64,000 bases of DNA. Source: Varibaculum cambriense DSM 15806 (GTDB taxonomy: Bacteria; Actinomycetota; Actinomycetes; Actinomycetales; Actinomycetaceae). Below, in pieces: positions 59,381 through 63,786 of this stretch. The notes beneath the pieces are model-generated. The model did not search any database, had not been told where the DNA came from, and saw nothing but the letters and a program-made list of their open reading frames with translations. A program made the position numbers and the translations under genes. The stretch covers positions 434,001 through 498,000 of the forward strand of contig NZ_ATUF01000002.1 in NCBI RefSeq assembly GCF_000420065.1, written 5' to 3'. Numbering within the stretch: position 1 is the stretch's first letter; every line of letters begins with the position of its first letter.

Positions 59381-60685
59381 TTACTTCTGTAGCACCTGGT
59401 GATAGGCCGCCAAGTCCAGCACCCCGTTACCAGACAGTCCGATCAAGAGCACCTGACCATCCCGAGCCTCCCCGGAGCGGATGAAGTCCAGTGCGCCGGC
59501 TACCGCGTGGGTAGATTCCGGAGCGGGAATAATTCCCTCGGCGCGCGCGAACTCGAGCCCGGCCGCAAAGGTTTCTTCTTGCGGATAGGCGCGTGCTTCC
59601 ATCAATCCCAGGTGGTAGGCGTGAGACACCATCGGTGCCATCCCGTGATAACGCAAGCCACCAGCGTGAATCGGATCCGGAACAAACTCATGCCCCAGGG
59701 TATACATCTTCATTAGCGGCGTCAGCCCCGACATATCCCCAAAGTCATAGCGATATTCGCCTTGCGTGAGCGAAGGACAGGCAGCCGGTTCACAGGCCAC
59801 CACCCGCGAGTTCTTTCCTTCGCGCAGATTCTCGCCGATAAAAGGAGTGGACAATCCGCCCAGGTTAGAGCCGCCCCCGGCGCAACCGAAAATAAAGTCC
59901 GCGCCGGATTCACCAGCTTTAGCCAGTTGAACTTGGGCTTCCAGGCCGATTACCGTCTGGTGGATAATCACCTGATTCATTACCGAGCCCAAAGCGTAGT
60001 GCGCCTGCGGATCCGAAACCGCAGATTCGACTGCCTCTGAAATCGCCATTCCTAAAGACCCAGAAGTATCGGGGTTTTCAGCTTGGATGCGGCGACCTGC
60101 CTCGGTGCGATCGGAGGGCGAACTCCAGCATTTTGCACCGTAAGTTTCCATTTGCATCCGCCGATAGGGCTTTTGATCGTAGGAGGAACGCACCTGCCAT
60201 ACTTCACAGTCCATTCCCAGCATGGAGCAGGCCATCGCCAGGGAAGCGCCCCACTGCCCGGCACCAGTTTCCGTGGTGAGCCGTTTAATCCCAGCCACCG
60301 CATTGTAATAAGCCTGCGCTAAGGCCGAGTTGGGCTTATGGGATCCGGCCGGCGAATTACCTTCATATTTGTAGTAGATACGACACTTGGTACCTAATTC
60401 CTGCTCTAAGTTATGAGCACGATAAAGGGGAGCGGGACGGAAGTTGGTGTACAGTTCTCGGACCCGCTGGGGAATATCGATATAGCGTTCCTTGCTCATC
60501 TCTAGTTCGATGAGTCCGGGAGCAAATAACGGTTCCAAGTCTTTCGCGGTGATTGGCTCCCGGGTCTGCGGGTTCAGGTAGGGAGGCATCGGCTCCGGGA
60601 AATCCGCAGCCAGGTTGTACCAGCGAGCAGGGATATGGTTATCGATCGGAAATCCTAAAGGTTGGATTCTAGGGTTATCAGTCAT
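59381..60685 (-). CDS. trpB2: TrpB2-type tryptophan synthase beta chain
   Basis: 434 residues with a GAGGAG ribosome binding site. The PLP lysine lies in NSPAGSHKPNSA near residue 113 and the catalytic region is TTETGAGQWGASLA. The long N-terminal extension (LPARWYNL-like start) and FAPGLIELEMSKERYIDIP belong to the TrpB2 group rather than TrpB1. It condenses indole with L-serine. No trpA or other trp gene is adjacent, and TrpB2 lacks a strict need for TrpA, so it may use free indole. Expression is under a trp attenuator just upstream. Confidence 0.93.
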   Translation of the reverse strand: MTDNPRIQPLGFPIDNHIPARWYNLAADFPEPMPPYLNPQTREPITAKDLEPLFAPGLIELEMSKERYIDIPQRVRELYTNFRPAPLYRAHNLEQELGTKCRIYYKYEGNSPAGSHKPNSALAQAYYNAVAGIKRLTTETGAGQWGASLAMACSMLGMDCEVWQVRSSYDQKPYRRMQMETYGAKCWSSPSDRTEAGRRIQAENPDTSGSLGMAISEAVESAVSDPQAHYALGSVMNQVIIHQTVIGLEAQVQLAKAGESGADFIFGCAGGGSNLGGLSTPFIGENLREGKNSRVVACEPAACPSLTQGEYRYDFGDMSGLTPLMKMYTLGHEFVPDPIHAGGLRYHGMAPMVSHAYHLGLMEARAYPQEETFAAGLEFARAEGIIPAPESTHAVAGALDFIRSGEARDGQVLLIGLSGNGVLDLAAYHQVLQK

Positions 60686-60742
60686 CTCTTGCTCCTCAAT
60701 GAAATATCACTTCTATTAATACAGTTTCCGCTGGCGGGAGAC

Positions 60743-60768
60743 AAAAAAATACCCGCCAACTGGCGGGT
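60743..60768 (-). promoter_or_regulatory. Transcription attenuator (intrinsic terminator) of trpB2
   Basis: On the minus strand, arm ACCCGCC (60768-60762), loop AGTT, arm GGCGGGT (60757-60751), then ATTTTTTT. The first arm can instead pair with an identical GGCGGGT at 60798-60792 that overlaps the leader-peptide stop codon, making an antiterminator. This is the 2:3 versus 3:4 choice of classical amino-acid attenuators. Confidence 0.88.
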
Positions 60769-60797
60769 TCTATAAATACCTGAAAGAAAGGACCCGC

Positions 60798-60845
60798 CTA
60801 AGCGAGCCACCACCACTGAATCGATTTGATTGCTGTTTCTTCCAT
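60798..60845 (-). CDS. trpL: trp leader peptide with three tandem Trp codons
   Basis: A 15-codon ORF reading MEETAIKSIQWWWLA followed by TAG. Three consecutive TGG codons lie near its end, five codons before the stop. An in-frame TAG four codons upstream fixes the ATG as the only start. A ribosome stalled on the Trp codons leaves the GGCGGGT at 60798-60792 free to form the antiterminator. A ribosome that reaches the stop covers it and lets the terminator form. It precedes trpB2 by 110 bp. Confidence 0.88.
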   Translation of the reverse strand: MEETAIKSIQWWWLA

Positions 60846-60851
60846 GCCCTC

Positions 60852-60881
60852 ATGCTAACGAAAACGTGAGAGCAACTACAA
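60852..60881 (-). promoter_or_regulatory. Candidate promoter of trpL-trpB2
   Basis: Minus-strand TTGTAG (60881-60876) and TAGCAT (60857-60852), spacer 18 bp. The -10 ends six bases before the leader ATG, so transcription may start at or next to it, giving a leaderless leader peptide. Confidence 0.45.
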
Positions 60882-60931
60882 GCCGTCTCAAAAATTGGCG
60901 TTTTGTTTCTCGAGGCTTTAATCTAAACGTA

Positions 60932-61009
60932 GCCATCAAGAGCAGCGCAGAGACCTGGCTCGCGCGCTGCAGCAACCGATAAGACGGTGCTAATGCCAGG
61001 ACCGATGGG
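60932..61009 (+). ncRNA. SAM-I/SAM-IV-type riboswitch controlling metNIQ
   Basis: P1 pairs CCATC (60933-60937) with GATGG (61004-61008). P2 pairs GCAGCGC (60942-60948) with GCGCTGC (60964-60970). P3 pairs ACCG (60975-60978) with CGGT (60985-60988). A pseudoknot pairs CCTGGC in the P2 loop (60954-60959) with GCCAGG (60995-61000). The core strings ATCAAGAG, GCAACC and GGTGCTAAT are those of the SAM clan. No separate P4 is seen, as in the compact SAM-I/IV variants. The 3' strand of P1 abuts the ribosome binding site GAAGGA (61010-61015 region), suggesting translational control. Confidence 0.88.
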
Positions 61010-61018
61010 AAGGAACTT

Positions 61019-62041
61019 ATGAGTAACGCGAAAGCGGAAAATCCGTTAATTGAGTTGCGGGACGTCTATAAAATTTATCCCCGCAAAAAGCAGGACAAGC
61101 TACACGCCCTCGACGGTATCTCCCTAAAAATTGGGGCCGGAGAAATCCACGGCATCGTGGGGCAATCGGGAGCCGGAAAATCTACGCTGATTCGTTGCTT
61201 AACTGCCTTGGAGCATCCCACTTCGGGGGAAATCCTGGTGGCAGGACAAAATCTTTCCACTCTTTCGGAAAAGCATTTGCGTCAGGCGCGCCGTTCGATA
61301 GGCATGGTGTTTCAGGCGGCTAACCTGCTGGATTCACGTACTGCCGCCGGCAATATTGCCTATCCGCTATATCTGGCGGGTCAAAAACGCGGGGAACGCC
61401 ACGAGCGGGTGCAAAAGCTTCTCGATTTGGTGGGCCTGCATGACCGCGGTTCCTCTTATCCTTCCCAGCTTTCCGGGGGGCAACAGCAACGAGTAGGGGT
61501 CGCCCGAGCACTTGCTGATGAACCGCAAGTATTACTATGCGATGAGCCCACCAGCGCTTTGGATACTGAATCCACCCAGCAGATTCTGCATTTAATTAAG
61601 GATGTACACGATCGTCTGGGCGTAACCGTGGTGATTATTACCCACGAGATGAGCGTGGTGCGGGAGATTTGCACCCACGTTACTTTGCTAGAGGGCGGAA
61701 AGATTGTGCAGACCGGTTCGGTGGAGGACGTAGTCAAGGATCCTTCCTCCCGCCTAGCAAAAGACCTGGTTCCGCCCCCAATTGTTGACGATGAAGTAAC
61801 TTTAGACGGTCAGCCCGCCTCGGTAGTGGATATTGCTTTCACTTCGTCGCCGGGGGTGCCTACCGGATCTAAAGTTATGGATCTGGTCGCCCAATTGGGT
61901 GGCGATATTGTGGCCGGGACCTTTGAAACCGTGGGAACCACGCAGGTTGGCCGCTTAGCTCTGGGAGTAAAAACCACGGAACTGGACGGCTTTATTCGGG
62001 AACTGGAAAATCATCACGTCTATACGGAGGTGCGGGCATGA
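61019..62041 (+). CDS. metN: Methionine ABC transporter ATP-binding protein
   Basis: 340 residues. Walker [11 protein letters not shown], signature LSGGQQQRV, Walker [13 protein letters not shown] and the switch histidine in ITHEM are intact. The C-terminal NIL-type ACT-like domain (about residues 265-340) senses methionine in MetN homologues and gives transinhibition. It powers methionine import with MetI and MetQ. Directly downstream of the SAM riboswitch. Confidence 0.96.
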
Positions 62042-62778
62042 GTCTTATCGTTACTACCTCACAGGTTGCGACCCTGATGCCCCTGGCTGCGGATGATTCC
62101 GGCCGTTGGTTTTCCAATCCGGTAATTACTAATAATCTTCTGGACGCCACTTTAGAAACCATCTATATGTCGCTATGGTCGGGATTTTTCTCGATACTGC
62201 TGGGACTGCCGATTGGTTTGCTGCTAGTAGCTACTGCTCCGGCGGGGCTACTATCAGCTTCTAAGGTCGCGCGCGTGCTCTACGCGGTGCTGGGATTCAT
62301 CGTGAACGTAGGCCGCTCGCTGCCCTTCGTAATCTTGATGATTTCGATTATCCCCTTCACTCGCCTGCTGGTGGGCACCTCTTTAGGGTGGAAAGCGGCG
62401 GTAGTGCCACTAACTCTGGCGGCGGCGCCTTTCTTTGCCCGCCTGGTGGAATCTAATGTGCAAGGCGTAGAAAGCGGAAAACTGGAAGCCGCAAAAATGG
62501 CGGGGGCCTCTAACTGGCAAATCATGTTGGGGGTGCAGGTACGCGAAGCGCTTCCCTCTCTAATCCAGTCGATTACCGTCACCTTGATTTCTTTGATAGG
62601 TTACGGCGCGATGGCAGGTACTTTAGGTACCGGCGGCCTAGGTGCTCTCGCCATGAACTACGGCTACACCCGCTTTATGGGTGACGTGATGCTAATCGTG
62701 GTCATAGACATCTTGCTGATCGTAGTCATCGTACAGTGGGTGGGCGACATGCTTAGCCGGCTGGTCGATCACCGCTAA
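62038..62778 (+). CDS. metI: Methionine ABC transporter permease
   Basis: 246 residues with about five to six membrane helices. The coupling-helix region ESNVQGVESGKLEAAKMAGASNWQI (EAA motif) lies near residue 150, followed by GYGAMAGTLGTGGLGALAMNYGY, typical of MetI. Its ATG overlaps the metN stop by 4 bp, so the two are co-translated. Confidence 0.95.
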   Translation: MSLIVTTSQVATLMPLAADDSGRWFSNPVITNNLLDATLETIYMSLWSGFFSILLGLPIGLLLVATAPAGLLSASKVARVLYAVLGFIVNVGRSLPFVILMISIIPFTRLLVGTSLGWKAAVVPLTLAAAPFFARLVESNVQGVESGKLEAAKMAGASNWQIMLGVQVREALPSLIQSITVTLISLIGYGAMAGTLGTGGLGALAMNYGYTRFMGDVMLIVVIDILLIVVIVQWVGDMLSRLVDHR

Positions 62779-62802
62779 GGGAAAACCAGTCGGAGATTCT
62801 CA

Positions 62803-62820
62803 CCGCTCTTAGCGGTTTTC
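62803..62820 (+). terminator. Small hairpin between metI and metQ
   Basis: ACCGCT-CTT-AGCGGT followed by TTTT. A weak intrinsic terminator that could lower or uncouple metQ transcription. Confidence 0.5.
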
Positions 62821-62958
62821 AGTAAAAATTATTATTCCCTGGCACCATGCTAGGTATCTGGGGAAGCTTCCATCCTCGGCCGCTCTATAGACGCAGGCGA
62901 GGACGGGCAGGAAAACTTTGTAAACTACCTAAATAACAACCATTTAAAGGAAAAGAAA

Positions 62959-63786
62959 ATGAAAACTTGGAAGAAAATTGTAGCCGCAGCTGGGGCTGCT
63001 AGCTTGGCATTGGGACTTGCAGCTTGCGGTGGCGGAGATTCCGCTGCTGACGCCAACAAACTAATTGTGGGAGCCTCCCCTACGCCGCATGCGCAGATCT
63101 TGCGTTACGTGGCCGATAACTTGGCTAAGAAGCAGGGCATCGAGTTGGAAATCAAAGAGTACACCGACTATAACCAACCGAATCAAGCCTTGAACTCTGG
63201 GGATCTGGATGCCAACTATTATCAGACGGTTCCCTATTTCGATGAGAAGACCGCTAAGAACAACTGGCAGTTCGACCACGGTAAGGGAATCCACTTGGAG
63301 CCGGTGGGTATTTATTCCGAAAAGCTCAAGGATATTAAGGATCTGAAGGACGGCGCCAAGATTGGGGTCATCACTGAAGAAACTAACCAGAAGCGCGGCC
63401 TGCAGCTACTGGCTGATAATGGTTTGATTAAGTTGCCGAAGGATGAAAATCAACAGTTGGTGGCGGTGATTGCCAAGTCTAAAGAATACAATCCGCGTGG
63501 CTTTGACCTGTCTGAGGTGGAAGGTCCCCAGTTGGTACGCTCGCTGGCTGACCTGGATATCGCGGTAATTAACGGTAACTTTGCTCTAGATGGCGGCAAA
63601 AAGCCTTCCGACGCTTTGGTTCTAGAATCCCCCAAGGACAACCCTTCCCTGAACATTCTGGTTTGGAAGAAGGATTCCAAAAAGCTGGAAGCGATTAAGA
63701 AGCTGGACGCGTTGCTGCACTCTCCGGAAGTAAAGGCTTTCATCGAGAAGAAGTGGCCGAATAAGGCAGTGCTACCTGGTTTTTAA
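62959..63786 (+). CDS. metQ: Methionine-binding lipoprotein MetQ
   Basis: 275 residues. The lipoprotein signal LALGLAACGGG gives an N-terminal lipidated Cys. The NlpA/MetQ fold follows: IVGASPTPHAQILRYV, YTDYNQPNQALNSGDLDANYYQTVPYF, and DLDIAVINGNFA. It captures methionine outside the membrane for MetNI. AAAGGAAAAG precedes the ATG. It is separated from metI by 180 bp with a small terminator and may have its own promoter. Confidence 0.95.
   Translation: MKTWKKIVAAAGAASLALGLAACGGGDSAADANKLIVGASPTPHAQILRYVADNLAKKQGIELEIKEYTDYNQPNQALNSGDLDANYYQTVPYFDEKTAKNNWQFDHGKGIHLEPVGIYSEKLKDIKDLKDGAKIGVITEETNQKRGLQLLADNGLIKLPKDENQQLVAVIAKSKEYNPRGFDLSEVEGPQLVRSLADLDIAVINGNFALDGGKKPSDALVLESPKDNPSLNILVWKKDSKKLEAIKKLDALLHSPEVKAFIEKKWPNKAVLPGF

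Follow-up and report, generated by a model that had tools for sequence, protein, structure and literature searches.

How would a human-associated bacterium that has lost most of the tryptophan pathway, but has a single gene of the tryptophan synthase beta type, control that gene, and what would the enzyme be used for? The question is raised by trpB2 of Varibaculum cambriense DSM 15806, which lies within the window analyzed here (the whole stretch of 64,000 nucleotides). The initial annotation had proposed that the gene is governed by a tryptophan (Trp) leader-peptide attenuator, describing a 15-codon Trp ORF, the segments GGCGGGT, ACCCGCC and again GGCGGGT, a run of seven T and then trpB2; all of these are found where it had placed them, on the minus strand. 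Our analysis adds a protector arm GGCTCGC (60808-60802), the placement of a promoter and a helix between the start-codon region of the leader and UUUCUUUCA. The features are given below in the direction of transcription, in window coordinates and with the evidence for each, an asterisk denoting the stop codon.

60876..60881, minus strand: -35-like TTGTAG, spacer of 18, weak match to the consensus (sequence)
60852..60857, minus strand: -10-like TAGCAT, ending 6 nt before the leader ATG (box in 16/19 leaders by script)
60845 (ATG) to 60798 (end of TAG), minus strand: leader peptide ORF MEETAIKSIQWWWLA, 15 codons (sequence; IQWWWLA kept in 6/6 Varibaculum)
60836..60844, minus strand: start-codon helix, 5' side (folding)
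60807..60815, minus strand: three consecutive Trp codons (sequence; in all 19 family leaders of alignment A5, themselves picked for holding WWW)
60802..60808, minus strand: arm 1 GGCTCGC, the protector, within codons Trp13-Leu-Ala, partner GCGGGTC (equivalent hairpin predicted in 19/19 family leaders)
60792..60798, minus strand: arm 2 GGCGGGT, its first base being the last base of the stop codon (sequence, folding; covariation over 19 leaders)
60781..60789, minus strand: UUUCUUUCA, 3' side of the helix with the start-codon region (folding; one compensatory pair among six genomes)
60762..60768, minus strand: arm 3 ACCCGCC, partner of arm 2 (antiterminator) or arm 4 (terminator) (folding; covariation)
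60751..60757, minus strand: arm 4 GGCGGGT, 3' side of the terminator and exact copy of arm 2 (terminator scan; covarying pairs over 19 leaders)
60743..60749, minus strand: T7 run of the terminator (sequence, terminator scan)
60692..60697, minus strand: Shine-Dalgarno GAGGAG of trpB2, outside the hairpins (sequence)
59381..60685, minus strand: trpB2, TrpB-like PLP enzyme of 434 aa, alone (NCBIfam match)

Read from the letters, this is the classical four-arm set of an attenuator, composed of a 15-codon ORF, an antiterminator arm over the stop codon, an intrinsic terminator (7-bp stem, loop of 4, then A and T7) and a protector arm. The gene behind it stands alone: its own Shine-Dalgarno is not part of any hairpin, and on its downstream side it faces a convergent menE-like gene; the upstream neighbor, metN-like, is divergent. 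A further segment, CCCGCC (60738-60733, minus strand), lies past the T-run and could pair with arm 4 in the readthrough RNA. It is present in five of the six Varibaculum genomes and missing in G207 (locus L086), so that we do not claim it as a fifth arm.

The reading that we favor, with a probability of about 0.87, is that of a ribosome-mediated attenuator through which a shortage of charged tRNA-Trp would switch on a lone TrpB2 that probably uses indole. Its basis in sequence comprises the anatomy, the conservation, the covariation across the family and the absence of other genes; the positions of the ribosome, the co-transcriptional folding, the response to Trp and indole as the substrate are what we infer.

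To what extent could such an arrangement arise by chance? A terminator scan of 501 bases returned three sites (the terminator, the protector hairpin and one elsewhere) against a mean of 0.5 in shuffled sequences, and the 103-nt leader RNA folds with z = -3.0, equal stability being reached in 1 of 200 shuffles. A joint scan then looked in TrpB2 upstream regions for the combination of a short, Trp-rich ORF with a terminator after it, using dinucleotide shuffles as control. Positives amounted to 11 of 109 regions (which are not genomes, at least seven of the 110 TrpB2 loci, L001-L007, being duplicate contigs of whole-genome loci), against 0/2180 shuffled sequences and 0/109 reverse strands. Nine of these 11 are Varibaculum records, among which L001-L003 repeat three genomes, leaving eight distinct loci (six from Varibaculum, plus L040 and L055). 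The same joint scan was negative for the other 98 regions, to which all 24 loci from Actinomycetaceae other than Varibaculum (L087-L110) belong. ORFs that contain WW but lack a terminator, such as those of L017, L025, L097, L099, L104 and L162, were left out of the counts. The Trp_leader model of Rfam (RF00513) scores the leader at 21.4 bits (E 0.064), below its gathering score of 41, and an Rfam scan of the window at gathering scores gave zero matches. No T-box is found among the Rfam matches up to E = 1 or by motif upstream of Varibaculum trpB2, the motif scan over TrpB2 upstream regions yielding a single match, L076.

The leader is found in all six Varibaculum genomes (G000, G204-G208). In the most distant of them, G207, the N-terminus of the peptide has diverged, with IQWWWLA*, the arms and the T-run unchanged. 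Because the arms are invariant across the genus, the six genomes present no covariation in them; the start-codon helix has one compensatory pair. The record L003, titled Tissierella sp. Marseille-P2918, has the same leader as Varibaculum G207, and its title looks wrong.

To extend the comparison to the whole family, a covariance model (R1) was built from the six Varibaculum leaders and searched in 213 family genomes with strict filters. Matches at E <= 1 came from 27 genomes, namely the six Varibaculum, each with one strong match before TrpB2, 13 with a WWWL leader, six without and two unclassified. No Trp leader is present at the R1 matches L174, L181, L182, L183, L185 and L187, and two weak matches, in G210 and G182, yielded no locus. 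The 13 further WWWL leaders precede canonical trpB in ten cases and a trpE-like gene in three. For ten of these 13 genes a comparison with NCBIfam was made: seven trpB (L188-L194) exceed the trpB cut-off and trpE L171 exceeds its own, whereas the trpE-like L169 and L186, which run off their loci, score 226 and 243 against the NCBI cut-off of 471; the remaining three trpB (L172, L175, L179) were identified by eye from their translation only. R1 is not exhaustive, having overlooked Trp leaders before trpD in G117 and G133. Such leaders before trpD occur in two Actinomycetaceae as MINAQNWWWHA* (L119:1398) and MHANRWLWWR* (L114:6140).

The alignment of the 19 family leaders (A5) consists of related sequences and its counts are of cells, not events; in it, 97.7% of the antiterminator cells are paired with 12 cells changed on both sides, and 95.5% of the terminator cells are paired with ten so changed, cell counts attained by 0/500 shuffles in either structure. 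The covariation scores of both structures are likewise reached by 0/500 shuffles. Two other measures are unexceptional: pairs changed on both sides were equaled in 15 (antiterminator) and 47 (terminator) of 500 shuffles, and further pair types in 498/500 and 47/500 respectively. The protector hairpin is predicted in 19/19 leaders, at -8.0 to -14.6 kcal/mol. These results bear on what the initial annotation expected of relatives: the conserved TGG run is borne out by WWW in all six Varibaculum and WWWL in 13 other Actinomycetaceae, and covarying arms appear across the 19 family leaders and not within Varibaculum, where the arms do not vary. The layout that it had recognized as that of trp attenuators is supported by the six congeners, by the homologous trpB and trpE leaders and by the family-wide covariation of the arms.

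The placement of the promoter relies on a different kind of pattern. A TAnnnT box ending 6-7 nt before an in-frame ATG is present in 16/19 leaders, a count favored by several leaders that offer more than one ATG, compared with 17/775 background ATGs (stored strand, same loci). The script skipped L175 for its short locus, but this has TATCAT 7 nt before its ATG, and in L170 and L176 the box precedes a GTG. Such spacing from the start codon suggests that the leader transcript is probably leaderless, starting at the AUG. Several attenuator peptides of Streptomyces lividans are similarly transcribed without a 5' UTR (PMC8079986); there the starts come from mapped transcripts, whereas in Varibaculum the start comes from box spacing only.

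How, then, would the leader work? With enough Trp, the ribosome would pass the three UGG codons, reach the stop codon and cover arm 2, so that arm 3 would pair with arm 4 and RNA polymerase would terminate at T7. With scarce Trp-tRNA, it would stall on the UGG codons and cover arm 1, leaving arm 2 to pair with arm 3 ahead of the synthesis of arm 4, and the polymerase would read on into trpB2. Without translation, the arm 1:arm 2 hairpin and the start-codon helix would mask arm 2, making termination the default. The TrpB2 produced would then condense indole, supplied by other microbes, with serine or O-phosphoserine.

These states were compared by predicted folding, with assumed ribosome footprint sizes. 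A ribosome at the stop codon covers arm 2 and leaves the terminator alone to form, and the complete naked leader adopts the terminated form. With the ribosome on Trp codon 1, 2 or 3 and the RNA extending to arm 3, the antiterminator forms in 6/6 genomes, at -10.1 to -14.2 kcal/mol; when arm 4 is included, the terminator is in the best fold of 4/6 genomes for Trp1 and of 6/6 for both Trp2 and Trp3. In these models equilibrium folding alone mostly favors termination, and because full-leader folds favor the terminator even with a stalled ribosome, antitermination would have to be kinetic, that is, committed before arm 4. Kinetic action is also the usual view of classical attenuators. Untranslated RNA up to arm 3 also favors the antiterminator in 6/6 genomes, and default termination would therefore rely on reaching arm 4 or on the protector holding. 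As the untranslated leader grows (6/6), arm 2 is predicted to pair first with arm 1, then with arm 3, and to return to arm 1 alongside the terminator once arm 4 has been made.

We next consider the enzyme and the pathway around it. The TrpB2 of the window shares 98% identity with a TrpB2 of V. cambriense and matches NCBIfam NF009057 at 679.7 bits (cut-off 366) and TIGR01415 at 581.7 (cut-off 518.85); its closest solved chains are 6hul, 6hte and 4qys, and in the alignment with them the SHK and TETGAGQWG motifs are kept. In the TrpB2_o class (Merkl 2007) the gene lies outside any trp operon and most members have an operon trpB1 elsewhere; trpB2 here lies outside an operon, in a genome without trpB1. 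Several roles have been proposed for TrpB2 (PMC1854888, in excerpt), and a high affinity for indole is described (PMC11917138, likewise in excerpt). In none of the six Varibaculum genomes, including that of the window, G000 (2.02 Mb, 10 contigs, 99.97% complete), did we find trpA, trpD or tryptophanase; the sole match to the trpE model is far below the cut-off in all six and in G000 belongs to the isochorismate synthase family. TrpB2 is the single TrpB-like gene in all six, with no trpB1, and the claim of a lone TrpB2 without trpA, made for this locus by the initial annotation, holds genome-wide. The search for other trp genes that it called for came out as an absence of trpA, trpD and trpE and the presence of an orphan trpC, seen in 6/6 Varibaculum and lying in G000, where it exceeds the TrpC cut-off, within a hisF-hisI-trpC-lgt cluster. 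As the searches gave neither trpE, trpD and trpA nor tryptophanase, the indole from which TrpB2 probably makes Trp should be of external origin. Published work has already described trp gene loss in Actinomycetaceae, from a sample that includes Varibaculum (PMC5404923). Two sequences of the orphan trpC (IGPS; L111:7985-8827, minus strand, and L112) carry NAQDL in place of the NARDL/NNRDL of their relatives. This change affects what we take to be a substrate-binding position, so that trpC may be decaying or repurposed.

Could a true attenuator control a TrpB2 that performs other chemistry, such as serine deamination, Trp breakdown or a reaction with another indole compound, and is merely Trp-controlled? 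PMC1854888 mentions that a serine deaminase role was once proposed for TrpB2 and that a TrpB2_o gene is retained in a genome without other trp genes, but also that the deaminase activity of TrpB2_o proteins is poor. Moreover, induction by Trp starvation would have the wrong sign for a Trp-degrading enzyme, canonical TrpB stands behind the same leader family in relatives and TrpB2 has retained its SHK and TETGAGQ motifs; we consider such other chemistry unlikely. Even less credit is due to a TnaC-like arrest peptide that would sense free Trp and relieve termination when Trp is plentiful, a notion suggested by the position of the Trp codons just before the stop codon. Arrest peptides of the TnaC kind depend on their own sequence, whereas the N-terminus of this peptide is unconserved in both genus and family; three adjacent Trp codons, arms 1 to 4, the intrinsic terminator and the trpB and trpE genes downstream in relatives all speak against it.

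There is, finally, a very slim chance of an ordinary terminator lying beside a chance ORF, with trpB2 transcribed from another promoter. A strict sigma-70 scan found no consensus promoter upstream of the leader, as this explanation would have it. However, the upstream neighbor is divergent and thus needs no terminator on the minus strand, the end of the ORF, the arms and the T-run are retained in 6/6 Varibaculum and in relatives, and no positives arose in the 2180 shuffles of the joint scan.

If the leader is indeed an attenuator of an indole-using TrpB2, similar arrangements might be sought elsewhere. Attenuated canonical trpB without trpA is found in nine genomes of four genera (G063, G064, G065, G066, G078, G144, G145, G175, G211), trpA being the only gene tested and, in the last five, taken as absent since the full match list omits them; G067 has both attenuated trpB and trpA. 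No such leader is present in the TrpB2 carriers without trpA G073, G113 and G122, the last having a WW ORF and no terminator. A swap in place between the lone trpB1 and Varibaculum trpB2 is not shown by shared synteny: ten neighboring frames were compared, and the ones that gave a match differ (ClpC-like ATPase, Na/H antiporter, patatin, CAAX protease, transporters, oxidoreductase).

Beyond the family, in the lineage of MAGs to which L040 belongs, a Trp leader (...WWGWWW...SG type) and a terminator precede TrpB2 in 18 of 28 loci, which are the full-length ones among the best 30 loci of 99 genomes (the partial L158 and L160 having been dropped), compared with 0/280 shuffles. Arm 2 is formed here by the Ser-Gly codons AGTGGG. 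In the corresponding alignment (A2), which retains L150 and L156 although both are out of register at arm 2 and so count as broken pairs, the antiterminator arms have ten cells changed on both sides (0/500 shuffles) and a covariation score reached by 3/500; pairs changed on both sides (182/500) and further pair types (219/500) are unexceptional. The terminator has three cells changed on both sides (0/500), and sliding it by -3 outscores the structure itself in covariation (0.109 vs 0.098). TrpB2 is often not the sole synthase of this lineage, trpA being found in 11/18 leader-bearing genomes (completeness not given).

Among 150 genomes related to L055 (Candidatus Nomurabacteria), TrpB2 is present in three (G214, G227, G235), which measure 0.5 to 1.1 Mb and yielded no trpA. 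Their loci L126, L127 and L128 have Trp-containing leader ORFs with terminators in 3/3 cases, against 0/30 shuffles, a hint that bacteria of very small genome size may salvage indole. The scan of the L040 and L055 sets used a Trp criterion and a loop limit looser than those of the joint scan of 109 regions, and the ORF that the script picked in L127 is not the leader read by eye, nor is its hairpin in L143 the terminator. When the antiterminator was shuffled locus by locus, L137, L147, L148, L150 and L127 did not reach significance, partly owing to an overlong arm-3 stretch. The leaders of the three groups (Varibaculum, L040, L055) resemble each other in their Trp codons alone, which suggests separate origins.

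These comparisons raise the question of whether a Trp attenuator combined with a stand-alone TrpB is a recurrent salvage module. After the loss of trpE-D-A, an attenuated lone trpB would be kept or rebuilt to live on community indole, TrpB2 being the version in Varibaculum, the L040 lineage and Nomurabacteria-like genomes, each with its own leader, and the general job of TrpB2 would be to make Trp from free indole upon shortage of charged tRNA-Trp; we rate this generalization as evenly balanced between true and false. The recurrence, as read in the genomes, supports the view of TrpB2 as an indole-using Trp synthase induced by Trp starvation.

The mechanism itself is already known. Attenuators before trp operons have been described in Actinobacteria (Seliverstov 2005, PMC1262725, in excerpt), and those of Corynebacterium and Streptomyces likewise have a short peptide, two or three UGG codons and an antiterminator competing with a GC-rich terminator and U-run; they precede trp operons or trpS, whereas in Varibaculum, which has no trpA, the leader precedes a TrpB2 gene that stands alone. 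The C. diphtheriae 'trpB2A' of the same excerpt adjoins trpA, and its trpB2 is presumably a second trpB gene of a family other than TrpB2. Chlamydia trachomatis, with its trpRBA genes, is likewise human-associated; it is rescued by indole from its neighbors and has Trp-dependent control of the synthase, as proposed here for Varibaculum. In contrast, it has retained trpA alongside trpB and relies on TrpR and YtgR as repressors, no leader peptide being described in the accessible parts of these sources (PMC7755916, PMC6504234, PMC5135834). A TrpB2 paralogue takes part in indole salvage also in Thermococcus kodakarensis (Hiyama 2014, via an excerpt of PMC11085991), an archaeon that has TrpB1 as well, unlike Varibaculum, which has no trpB1. 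Among the matches listed in the literature searched, mostly non-subscription, there is no description of a Trp leader before TrpB2 or lone trpB. As far as that literature shows, what is new is that the mechanism is attached to TrpB2 or TrpB standing alone once the pathway has been lost, and that this combination recurs.

TrpB2 is a widespread family of disputed cellular role, on which a leader that reads Trp codons offers independent evidence of how the enzyme is used in the cell; the different Trp leaders before TrpB2 in three bacterial groups make that role testable. For the Actinomycetaceae, the loss of the pathway would have a repeated end point, one attenuated synthase gene relying on the indole of neighbors, and this dependence predicts cross-feeding in the communities that these bacteria inhabit. 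On the opposite side of the intergenic region, a candidate SAM (S-box) riboswitch at 60930-61011 (plus strand), which at 40.3 bits stays below the gathering score of 44.4, precedes the divergent metNIQ-like operon (61019-63786).
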